A model generated the notes under the pieces. It worked only from the letters and a program-made list of their open reading frames with translations, had not been told where the DNA came from and did not search any database. Source: Syntrophaceae bacterium UBA1163 (GTDB taxonomy: Bacteria > Desulfobacterota > BSN033 > UBA1163). From it: 64,000 nucleotides of DNA. The position numbers were made by a program, and so were the translations under genes. Shown piece by piece: positions 15,847 to 18,514 of this stretch (position 1 is the stretch's first letter; the number at the start of each line of letters is the position of its first letter). The stretch covers positions 15,468 through 79,467 of the forward strand of contig DBZJ01000100.1 of the NCBI GenBank assembly GCA_002311635.1. The letters run 5' to 3'.

Positions 15847-17010
15847 TTAGGAATTCAAGATATTCGTGTAAATGCTCCTAATTCGTTTAATATATTCTGA
15901 CCATAATGCCCTTTGTTCAACAATCAGGCGATTTTTTGTTGGACCTTTCTGTAACAATTCATGGTTACGAATGGCATCGATAATCCTACTGGCTAAGGAT
16001 TTTGGTTCGTGTGGAGAAATTAGAAATCCGTTCTCTCCATTAATAATCCACTCCCTGTTGGCCGGAATATCTGTGACCACCGGAAAAGCTCCGGACCCCA
16101 TTGCCTCAAGCAAAGAAACTGACGTCCCATCGTATAGAGAGGTCGATACATAAATATCTGCTTGGGACAAAAGATTTGGCATCTGGTCATGGGGCACCCG
16201 CCCCAAAAACTTTACAGATGAATTGATATTCAAGTTCTTTACCTCTTTCTCTAAAACCACTTTCTCAGACCCCTCTCCAGCAATTAGAAATTTTGTCCCC
16301 GGTTCTTCCTTCAGGACAATTGGAATAGCCCGGATTAACAAAGAAACGTTGTAGATCGGGAGAAGGTTCCGATTGCTCAGAATCGTGATAGGTCTGTTCC
16401 ACGACTCCACTTCCCTATTCTTCCCGGTCTCTAAAAATGAGGCATCAATGCCCATTGGAATTGTTGAGATTTTTTTAGTTGGCACACCCAATCGCTCTAA
16501 TTCCTTTTTCTGCACCTCTGAGACACAATTGAGATGGTCCGCTTTTTTGCAAACATAGACAAATATCTTTCTAAGAAATCCCGGTCTATCTAAAGCCATT
16601 CTTAAATCGGAACCATGGATGGTTACAATAAATGGTTTTCTTAGAAGGGCCTTAATCCAAACCCCGATCAGGCCTGTTGGAATCGCCCAGTGGACATGAA
16701 TCACATCGCATTTGTCCCTTAACACGGTATAAACCGTTAAGAAGAACCCGGTGACATAATAAAGAATCATTCTGAGAAACGGGATTTTTTTATACTCGAC
16801 GAGGAGTTTGTTTCTGGCAAAAAAGGGAAAACGATAGACCTTTATCCCATCCTCTTCTTCAAAATAACGGCTCCCTTCATAAATCCTCGGAGTAACAACA
16901 GAAATTTCGTATCCTTCCTTTTGTAGCAATGAGGCTATTTTTTTGATAAAGATGCCACGATAGGAATCCTTAAAATCCGGATAGGCATTGGTAAGGAATA
17001 AAATCCTCAT
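15847..17010 (-). CDS. Glycosyltransferase family 4 (GT-B fold)
   Basis: The protein begins MRILFLTNAYPDFKDSYRG and has the GT4 acceptor-domain words HWAIPTGLIGVWIKALLRKPF and TIHGSDLRMAL. The donor domain has FLGRVPHDQMPNLLSQADIYVSTSLYDGTSVSLLEAMGSG with the conserved Glu-x7-Glu region. The frame is open to 17094, but the extra 28 residues are encoded by the repeat at 17011-17098. The ATG at 17010 fits the family N-terminus. No clear ribosome site precedes it, because the repeat arm runs right up to the start codon. This suggests that the sequence between this gene and the next was replaced or inserted. Confidence 0.88.
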   Translation of the reverse strand: MRILFLTNAYPDFKDSYRGIFIKKIASLLQKEGYEISVVTPRIYEGSRYFEEEDGIKVYRFPFFARNKLLVEYKKIPFLRMILYYVTGFFLTVYTVLRDKCDVIHVHWAIPTGLIGVWIKALLRKPFIVTIHGSDLRMALDRPGFLRKIFVYVCKKADHLNCVSEVQKKELERLGVPTKKISTIPMGIDASFLETGKNREVESWNRPITILSNRNLLPIYNVSLLIRAIPIVLKEEPGTKFLIAGEGSEKVVLEKEVKNLNINSSVKFLGRVPHDQMPNLLSQADIYVSTSLYDGTSVSLLEAMGSGAFPVVTDIPANREWIINGENGFLISPHEPKSLASRIIDAIRNHELLQKGPTKNRLIVEQRALWSEYIKRIRSIYTNILNS

Positions 17011-17098
17011 AAGGAAGCCAAGAATACAGGAGAATTCAAAATGATTTTTTCTTGCCTTCCTGCATTCCTTATAATAAGGAAACCAGGAATACAAGAAT
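17011..17098. repeat. GGAAGCCAGGAA-type repeat, 3' side of the GxxExxY gene
   Basis: Two direct copies of a 19-base word differ at three positions (17013-17031 GGAAGCCAAGAATACAGGA and 17078-17096 GGAAACCAGGAATACAAGA). An inverted version (CTTCCTGCATTCC) lies between them. The block fills the whole space between the glycosyltransferase start codon and the stop of the GxxExxY gene. Confidence 0.75.
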
Positions 17099-17491
17099 TT
17101 ATTTACGAATAACCCTTTTTACCTCCAAAACAGGTTTGGAGAAATTTATGATCAAACCATGCTCCTTGCCCAGTGCCTTAAGATAAGATTTTACGATTGC
17201 GAAGTGGAAATCTTCGACATTTTTGACTGCCTTCAACTCAACGACAATAGTATCGTCGACAATGAGATCCAGCCTGTGCCTTCCAACTTCAATTTCATCA
17301 TATTTAATGACCACTTCCCGCTGTCTTTGAACTTTGAGATTTTGTTTGTGCAATTCGATAATAAGGGCGTTTTCATAGACCGATTCCAAAAATCCAGGTC
17401 CCAATTTCTTATGGACCTCAATCGCACACCCGATAATTTTGTTCGTTAGTCCTGCATGTTCTAATCCTTTTCCTGGTTTCATCGCTTCCAT
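17099..17491 (-). CDS. GxxExxY family protein (putative PD-(D/E)XK nuclease fold)
   Basis: The 130-residue protein has the defining motif Gly33-x2-Glu36-x2-Tyr39 (GFLESVYENAL). It also has a nuclease-like core, with Asp75 in RLDLIVDD and Glu85-x-Lys87 in VVELKAV, as in PD-(D/E)XK enzymes. Family members are widespread small proteins, often in single-gene settings, and have no established biochemical role. Here the gene sits between two glycosyltransferase genes, with repeats built on the word GGAAGCCAGGAA on both sides, and has a weak ribosome site. It looks like a small independent insertion, not a glycan gene. Confidence 0.88.
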   Translation of the reverse strand: MEAMKPGKGLEHAGLTNKIIGCAIEVHKKLGPGFLESVYENALIIELHKQNLKVQRQREVVIKYDEIEVGRHRLDLIVDDTIVVELKAVKNVEDFHFAIVKSYLKALGKEHGLIINFSKPVLEVKRVIRK

Positions 17492-17536
17492 AGATTTTGT
17501 TGCTTGATCCTAAGTTTCATGGCTTCTTCAGGCTAT

Positions 17537-18514
17537 TTATCCTTGGCTTTTTTCCTGAGTTCCTGGCTTCCTCATCTCATTTCTTAATTCTAAATTCTCC
17601 TTCTGAACCCGGAGTATCTCTCTTCGAAGAGAAACGATCTGGATAGCAATAAACCCAAATGAGAGTATCTGAATCCCTCCTAAAATTAATAAGATGGCAA
17701 ATGTGATGAGCGGTCTTCCAGGCGTCAAATCTCCCGAGAACCTCAAATACGCAATATATAGACCAATCAAAAGGCCGATAGTAAGAGTTAAAAGTCCGAT
17801 AAAACCAAATACGATCATGGGTTTTTCAAATGCAGAAAAGACCAGATGAGAGAGAGCTGTTTTCCTAAATTTAAATTTGGATTTACCTTTCTTCCGACTG
17901 CTTAATATCGCCGGGCTCTCTTTAACACGATATCCAAGGGCTAATGCCTTAGAGAGAATCTCGAGGTGGATTTCTTTCCCATCTGATTCGATCTCAAGAG
18001 AATCAAGAACTTTTTTCCGGTAGGCACGGAAGATCCCGGTGGATGTGTAAATCCGGTTCGGCATGACCAATCGAAGTATTCTGTTTCCCAGCTTACTCAC
18101 CCATAATCGAAGAACAGGGACGTTTTCAACCCCTCCTCCGGGCATATATGGGGATGCAAGGACGAGATCAACCTCGGCTTCTCTCCTCAACGTCTCAACG
18201 AGATCGAGTATATATTGCGGGCTATAGCTTAGATCTGCATCAATGGAAACGATTATCTCTCCACTCGATTCCTTAAAACCTTTCCTTAATGCCATTCCAC
18301 GGCCGGCATTCTTCGAGTAAGAAACAACTTTCAACTTCTTATCCTCCCCCGCTAATCGACTTAAAACGTCAAGGGTGTTGTCGAGACTTCCATCATTGAC
18401 TGCAATAATCTCATATTTCCCCCTGAACGAAGCCAACACCTCCTCAACCCGGCTCAGGGTAGATTCTGCATTCTCAGCCTCATTAAACATCGGGATGACG
18501 ATTGAAAGGTCCAT
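17537..18514 (-). CDS. Polyprenyl-phosphate glycosyltransferase (GT2, DPM1-like) with C-terminal membrane helices
   Basis: GT2 enzymes of this type load a sugar onto undecaprenyl phosphate at the inner face of the membrane. The 325-residue protein has the GT-A core: LSIVIPMFNEAENAE, IIAVNDGSLDNT, and the metal-binding ISIDADLSYSPQYI. Two membrane helices follow at about 225-250 and 262-290. The product is a donor for GT-C enzymes such as those at 21.6-26.8 kb and 1.5 kb; that link is inference. The last 11 residues (RKPGTQEKSQG) are encoded by the GGAAGCCAGGAA repeat arm, so the native C-terminus may have been replaced. Confidence 0.9.
   Translation of the reverse strand: MDLSIVIPMFNEAENAESTLSRVEEVLASFRGKYEIIAVNDGSLDNTLDVLSRLAGEDKKLKVVSYSKNAGRGMALRKGFKESSGEIIVSIDADLSYSPQYILDLVETLRREAEVDLVLASPYMPGGGVENVPVLRLWVSKLGNRILRLVMPNRIYTSTGIFRAYRKKVLDSLEIESDGKEIHLEILSKALALGYRVKESPAILSSRKKGKSKFKFRKTALSHLVFSAFEKPMIVFGFIGLLTLTIGLLIGLYIAYLRFSGDLTPGRPLITFAILLILGGIQILSFGFIAIQIVSLRREILRVQKENLELRNEMRKPGTQEKSQG
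17541..17571. repeat. GGAAGCCAGGAA-type repeat arm, 5' side of the GxxExxY gene
   Basis: Read on the minus strand, this arm gives GGAAGCCAGGAACTCAGGAA followed by AAAGCCAAGG. It matches the word used at 17011-17098 but in the opposite orientation. It lies inside the 3' end of the GT2 coding region. Confidence 0.65.

Follow-up and report, generated by a model that had tools for sequence, protein, structure and literature searches.

The window, a stretch of 64,000 nt from Syntrophaceae bacterium UBA1163, has a GxxExxY gene between two glycosyltransferase genes, GT2 and GT4 (Table 1). In profile searches, the GxxExxY protein matches PF13366 (PDDEXK_3) at 130.1 bits (cut-off 22) and TIGR04256 at 139.7 bits (cut-off 35), and PF13366 is the gene's sole Pfam match at E ≤ 0.001. 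When 24 GxxExxY sequences are aligned, G33, E36, E85 and K87 are invariant and Y39 and D75 are nearly so; the same residues, with the numbering one lower, are invariant in a set of 61 sequences (A2). The top PDB matches of an AlphaFold2 model of the protein (pLDDT 91.7, pTM 0.84) are PD-(D/E)XK proteins, with Foldseek E-values that are all at least 0.001, and a search of solved structures by sequence gave no match. From the model, the window's protein is predicted to be a PD-(D/E)XK nuclease. PF13366 is present in 140 of 395 sampled genomes of the phylum. The open-access literature that we searched gave no description of the function of the GxxExxY family, and no match to PDDEXK_3, TIGR04256 or the string CCGCAGAGACGCAGAG.

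Table 1. Genes, word arrays and units at the GxxExxY locus (positions within the window).
Feature	Position	Strand	Notes
GT4 gene	15847-17010	-	start codon adjoins outer array
Three-word array, outer end of small unit	17009-17034	+	AAGGAA GC CAAGAA TA CAGGAG; strict match 17011-17031 (+)
Inverted unit without gene, 64 nt	17009-17072	.	contains both small-unit arrays
Three-word array, inverted, other end of small unit	17049-17072	-	strict match 17050-17070 (-)
Three-word array, gene-unit end downstream of GxxExxY stop	17074-17097	+	strict match 17076-17096 (+)
Gene-bearing word-framed unit, 502 nt	17074-17575	-	
GxxExxY gene (TIGR04256 / PF13366)	17099-17491	-	profile matches; predicted PD-(D/E)XK fold, Asp75, Glu85, Lys87
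GT2 gene	17537-18514	-	last codons are array sequence
Three-word array, gene-unit end upstream of GxxExxY gene	17550-17575	-	encodes part of GT2 tail; strict match 17553-17573 (-)

Each repeat at the locus has the form AAGGAA-nn-CAGGAA-nn-CAGGAA, with small changes and a word pitch of 8 nt. The original prediction placed two direct copies and an inverted word on one side of the gene and an inverted arm on the other, and we recovered all of these; the direct copies are at 17009-17031 and 17074-17096 (87% identity over 23 nt). The repeats also reach into both neighbors, as had been claimed: one array encodes the C-terminal tail of GT2 (RKPGTQEKSQG), and GT4 begins at the end of another. The gene is indeed framed by repeats, but they do not form a single unit. 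They make up two neighboring inverted units, 1 nt apart, and the four arrays run + - + -. The small unit is predicted (with RNA parameters) to fold as one hairpin at -18.4 kcal/mol. The units alter the neighboring genes, in that GT2 gains a C-terminus and GT4 and GT2 are pushed apart.

A strict three-word pattern, RAGGAANNCARGAANNCARGA, has four matches in the genome of 4,084,907 bases, and all four are at the GxxExxY locus (Table 1). Read backward as a control, the pattern has 0 matches in the whole genome, and it also has 0 matches in 50 Markov-1 windows of 64 kb. The 12-mer alone, with up to one mismatch, is weak evidence (4 matches in 64 kb vs. 0.72 expected). RAGGAANNCARGAANNCARGA was found in 15 of 59 genomes, and 13 of these 15 are among the 17 genomes of the window's family.

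The original prediction also held that a GxxExxY unit had been inserted with its repeats, and the GT2-GT4 junctions of relatives agree with this. Orthologs of GT2 (E ≤ 1e-60) are present in 6 of the 23 genomes searched, including the window's genome; G016 lies outside this search, and its junction was reached through the GxxExxY search. (G and L numbers denote our genomes and loci.) G016 and G007 have the GxxExxY gene and the same words at the junction. Three relatives (G001, G012 and G018) have neither the gene nor the repeats at this junction; their GT2 tail differs from RKPGTQEKSQG, and the start of GT4 overlaps the stop of GT2 or lies close to it. The gene and the words are thus present or absent together, which implies that unit and repeats were gained or lost as one, and insertion of the unit together with its words is well supported. 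At the junction of G004 (L036:2445-3218), inverted GGTTAAGG-like words surround a four-helix-bundle gene (59.8 bits to PF05635, the protein of 23S rRNA intervening sequences), and TTCCTTGGTTTCCTTATG, likely a remnant of CAGGAA words, lies ahead of GT4. Elsewhere in the same operon, there is one CAGGAA-class array about 220 nt (G001, L038) or 310 nt (G004, L036) upstream of GT2, so the words are absent from the junction and not from those genomes.

GxxExxY genes also lie between the ribosomal protein genes rpsK and rpsD (L023 and L027), and we examined 22 such junctions. Two are filled by a gene with GATTACACAGATT words (G011, and G002 with an internal stop). Seven are empty, with 11-15 nt between the genes (G001, G006, G017, G018, G021, G022 and G025). 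By eye, another seven are scarred, with remnants of words or of the gene and no intact gene (G003, G004, G009, G012, G013, G014 and G015); for example, in G003 the left and right arrays are adjacent, as if the gene had been lost. The remaining junctions, six in all, are either short or ambiguous (G000, G005, G007, G008, G010 and G023). Five of the seven genomes with empty junctions are outside the window's family, and the filled and scarred states are confined to that family.

To describe framing more broadly, we took 238 GxxExxY loci (31 from searches of relatives, 80 from a wide search, and 27 and 100 from a phylum-wide search). All of them are high-scoring (the wide set comprises the top 80 among at least 587 matches, and the 100 are from the matches listed), and a few of the 238 repeat one another. 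The gene was found in 236, and we kept the 229 that have 100 nt or more on either side. A locus passes our inverted-word test if its flanks share a 6-mer in inverted orientation across the gene and the best such 6-mer scores at least 5 copies. Of the 229 loci, 109 pass, and 56 pass in the direct orientation, probably because the flanks often hold arrays in both directions. PIN genes from the window's relatives never pass (0/30 inverted and 0/30 direct). In the wide sample, 37/72 loci pass inverted and 12/72 direct, vs. 2/130 for intervals shifted by 1300 nt at the same loci. The 120 loci below the inverted threshold and the 56 direct passes count against reading the unit as mobile. On whether GxxExxY genes in general carry repeats of the same word on both sides, about half of the tested loci have inverted words on the two sides, and the word varies by locus. 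In an earlier and blunter test, exact pairing of 7-mers between flanks, 18/27 GxxExxY loci and 15/25 four-helix-bundle loci exceeded all 100 shuffles.

The commonest word labels are CACAGA, CGCAGA, CACGAA, CGCAAA and CACGGA (together CRCNRA); ACAGGA and CAGGAA classes occur as well. At 166 of the 229 loci, more CRCNRA words face the gene than face away from it; 39 loci have fewer, and at 24 the numbers are equal (sign test). Per 200-nt flank, GxxExxY genes have 2.67 and 2.73 words toward the gene vs. 1.22 and 1.19 away; PIN genes have 0.50 and 0.63 toward vs. 0.73 and 0.73 away. The density of CRCNRA drops with distance on both sides of the gene, over about 250 nt. The pitch between words is 8 nt (100), 9 nt (130) or 10 nt (61), with mostly two to three words per side.

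Related proteins tend to have the same word. We labeled 153 GxxExxY loci with their word and placed their 151 distinct proteins in a tree. The label changes 64 times on the tree, vs. a mean of 102 and a minimum of 93 in 200 shuffles; near-copies contribute to this. Among the 134 rows with CRCNRA labels, most pairs of proteins that are over 70% identical have a common word, and below 60% identity, the word is shared in 13-19% of pairs (setting aside the smallest bin, which has one pair). A single letter can differ throughout the words of close relatives: two loci in one genome (L265 and L300) have CGCAGA vs. CACAGA, step for step, in both of their arrays. The word is thus passed on along with the gene and changes in its entirety. 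We also sought a code that relates residues to words and rejected it: with three word positions and about 117 columns compared, the best sister-pair result (p = 0.0016) leaves nothing after multiple testing, and among the output listed, there were too few independent pairs on supported branches.

Arrays also occur without the gene. We counted matches to an array pattern, CCRCNRAGNNCRCNRAGNNCRCNRAG, in the 395 genomes; 77 have it, and 44 have at least four matches. PF13366 is present in 38 of these 44 array-rich genomes vs. 102 of the 351 others (Fisher exact test, P = 1.8e-13, which is too small because the genomes are related). By family, array-rich genomes occur in 23 families, and in 21 of these at least one of the array-rich genomes carries GxxExxY. 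Some genomes have tens to hundreds of arrays. Two results count against GxxExxY as the mobilizer: six genomes (G040, G152, G162, G201, G242 and G354) have at least 10 arrays and no match to PF13366, and G015, from the window's family, has 11 CAGGAA-class arrays and no match to PF13366.

Gene-free arrays can form short inverted pairs. About 800 kb of G075 has two GxxExxY genes and 48 three-word matches, vs. 0.2 and 0.0 in Markov controls for its two contigs. Under looser rules, there are 53 merged arrays, and neighbors within 700 nt face inward in 12 cases, in the same direction in 2, and outward in 1. The 48 matches give 15 pair rows (some with a common partner), of which 12 span 74-261 nt without GxxExxY, one is the GxxExxY unit, and two are longer. 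Of the 48 arrays, 21 lack an inverted partner within 1600 nt, which counts against the mobile-unit reading. In G351, 28 of the 41 listed neighbors within 700 nt face inward, and 26 of these pairs span 70-109 nt; a 464-nt unit in this genome consists of an array, a GxxExxY gene, and an array. In G214, all 20 neighbors within 700 nt, among the arrays listed, face inward. The idea that gene-free units have unrelated interiors was rejected, as 20 of 28 distinct interiors resemble another interior. As a separate observation, L442:260-1200 (G351) has about six near-identical framed units in tandem, about 163 nt apart, near a GxxExxY unit.

We compared a 13-kb stretch of G075 to four genomes from the same genus. 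G038 and G165 lack one short pair at the orthologous site, and so does G138, in which the stretch has diverged. The insert of G075 at this site measures about 145 nt and exceeds the array pair; its arms are CGTAAAAAGTC-like. At least some short pairs of G075 sit within larger repeats with CGTAAAAAGTC-like arms; these repeats may have a mobilizer of their own. At the GxxExxY site of G075, the gene is missing from G038, whose arrays there consist of a different word, and in G165 the gene is shortened on one side. A dispersed repeat of 187 nt (L332:3564-3751) has matches in all four of the same-genus genomes, and we noticed no word array in it.

The word frame, the relatives that lack both gene and frame at the junction, and similar frames at about half of the loci make it likely that the gene is part of a poorly known type of mobile DNA. 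We hold with moderate confidence that GxxExxY is a predicted PD-(D/E)XK nuclease in a likely mobile unit, and that it would recognize the words at the ends, cut, and so start the copying or movement of the unit. We infer that the units move by themselves and that GxxExxY is the mobilizing enzyme, which recognizes the words and drives the movement. In such a mechanism, the protein would bind a unit at the arrays on its two ends and cut there, and host repair would then copy or move the unit, which would complete the insertion. Gene-free pairs would be non-autonomous relatives that GxxExxY serves in trans. Loss of the interior or of one arm would leave scars such as those at rpsK-rpsD. Besides the points named above, several results speak against this reading: target duplication is not general among the paired units, word positions are not tracked by any protein column, other genes occur in frames too, and the larger repeats around some short pairs of G075 may be mobilized separately.

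The strongest rival is that another transposase moves the frames and that GxxExxY is a frequent passenger, like the framed toxin-antitoxin and four-helix-bundle genes; we consider this somewhat unlikely. Other genes do occur in frames. In G075, an MNT-HepT toxin-antitoxin pair lies within inverted CGCAAA arrays (C1:379631-380714, L349-L350). A site that holds a short unit in G075 and G038 is occupied in G138 by a longer insert (L387:2160-2600), in which an MqsA-like ORF lies between similar, word-like ends; the ORF scores 26.5 bits, which is below the Pfam cut-off of 30. These inserts indicate that frames hold varied cargo. Besides the framed four-helix-bundle gene at the junction of G004, 9 of 22 four-helix-bundle genes pass the word test inverted (and 5/22 direct). 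In the relatives, these genes (L041-L070) are often framed by other words, such as TTCAAGG, GTTACAA, GTGTCCGT and TTAAGTAA. The six array-rich genomes without PF13366 also fit a passenger. On the other hand, GxxExxY genes are framed far more often than the PIN genes of the window's relatives, including in the wide sample, and the word label follows the relatedness of the GxxExxY proteins. The window itself has a PF05635 gene (91.5 bits) at 1148-1462 on the - strand, with iterated flanks (GCATGGCGCATAGCGCATGGCG and GCTCTGCGCTCGGCGCTGCGCGCTCTGCG), and its genome has 14 matches to PF05635. The open-access literature that we searched had no match for a four-helix-bundle protein together with inverted repeats.

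A second alternative is that the arrays do not move but serve GxxExxY as binding sites, for autoregulation or for the organization of DNA, and that the differences between genomes are due to deletions. A pitch near one helical turn and the inward orientation would suit an array that binds protein, and we found no general target duplication for the units. We tested 34 single arrays from the window's relatives and 36 paired units. Of the paired units, 32 are not above the 95% point of the control, and the other four are one tandem cluster (L442). Of the single arrays, 11 score at least 18 (vs. 14 for the control's 95% point): four are tandem copies (L462, and L487 three times), another four (L465, L464, L469 and L490) resemble words or have low complexity, and three (L482, L472 and L485) have imperfect direct duplications of 34-40 nt, with control fractions of 0.007-0.02. 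Those three are single CAGGAA-class arrays with flanks as if the target had been doubled, and L472 and L485 are in one genome. Against immobile sites, seven relatives have just 11-15 nt between rpsK and rpsD, and five of the seven are from outside the window's family, whereas the junction is filled or scarred only inside it. Also, two different framed genes occur at the one GT2-GT4 junction, and arrays number in the tens to hundreds in some genomes. We consider this explanation improbable.

A unit that acts at the RNA level, like the 23S rRNA intervening sequences, seems very improbable. The arrays would pair in the transcript, and the unit would be excised from the operon's mRNA. The predicted hairpin of the 64-nt unit, the location of units within operons (including rpsK-rpsD), and the frequent framing of PF05635 genes, whose family takes its name from the 23S intervening sequence, are all consistent with this, but plain pairing of the ends does not require the CRCNRA grammar that unrelated loci have in common. 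Finally, chance repeats in an AT-rich spacer would fit the mild enrichment of the 12-mer alone, but this reading is refuted by the strict pattern, with all four of the genome's matches at the locus and none in the controls.

The link to word-framed units gives a widespread family a testable function, and it accounts for a class of repeats that is seen in many genomes. The family also offers a natural set of small proteins, for each of which the flanks of the gene show a possible target word. More tentatively, units framed by inverted arrays of three iterated words may be a new, phylum-crossing class of mobile DNA, in which GxxExxY, as a lone small PD-(D/E)XK endonuclease, reads a word and moves its own unit, gene-free pairs and framed cargo (toxin-antitoxin genes, for instance). 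The whole word would switch from lineage to lineage, and the word and the protein would evolve as a pair.

Three known systems are similar in part: 23S rRNA intervening sequences, in which a small gene lies between inverted flanks; MITEs, which are small and have terminal inverted repeats and no gene; and REPINs with their RAYT transposases, which are of the HUH type. Like the 23S intervening sequences, the window's unit has a small gene and inverted flanks, and PF05635 genes are often framed by words, but the GxxExxY protein is from another family and the unit lies between two glycosyltransferase genes instead of in rRNA (an Rfam scan of the window found one tRNA only). The small gene-free pairs resemble MITEs in their inverted ends, and one pair from G075 is missing from the orthologous site in congeners. 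Unlike MITEs, they have iterated words instead of one fixed terminal repeat, and no known transposase has been assigned to them. As for target duplication, no general one was seen, with 32 of the 36 paired units within the control's range and imperfect duplications at three of the 34 single arrays.

REPINs are described as short inverted pairs that are dispersed, lineage-specific, and linked to the single-gene RAYT family, which is flanked by the same repeats, and RAYTs are described as tyrosine transposases (PMC3116915). As in that system, inverted doublets are dispersed in G351 (28/41) and G214 (20/20 among those listed). The window's genome (G000) differs in that it has only the four arrays of the locus. 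The ends of our units also differ from those of REPINs: they have three iterated words, at a pitch of 8-10 nt, and the word changes between related loci. By its Pfam matches (only PF13366 at E ≤ 0.001), the window's GxxExxY gene is not a tyrosine transposase, and its predicted fold is shared with Cas4-like (4ic1) and Holliday-junction-resolvase (1gef) PD-(D/E)XK nucleases. By analogy, we read the unit as a putative REPIN-like mobile unit, with a predicted PD-(D/E)XK protein in the place of the RAYT transposase.
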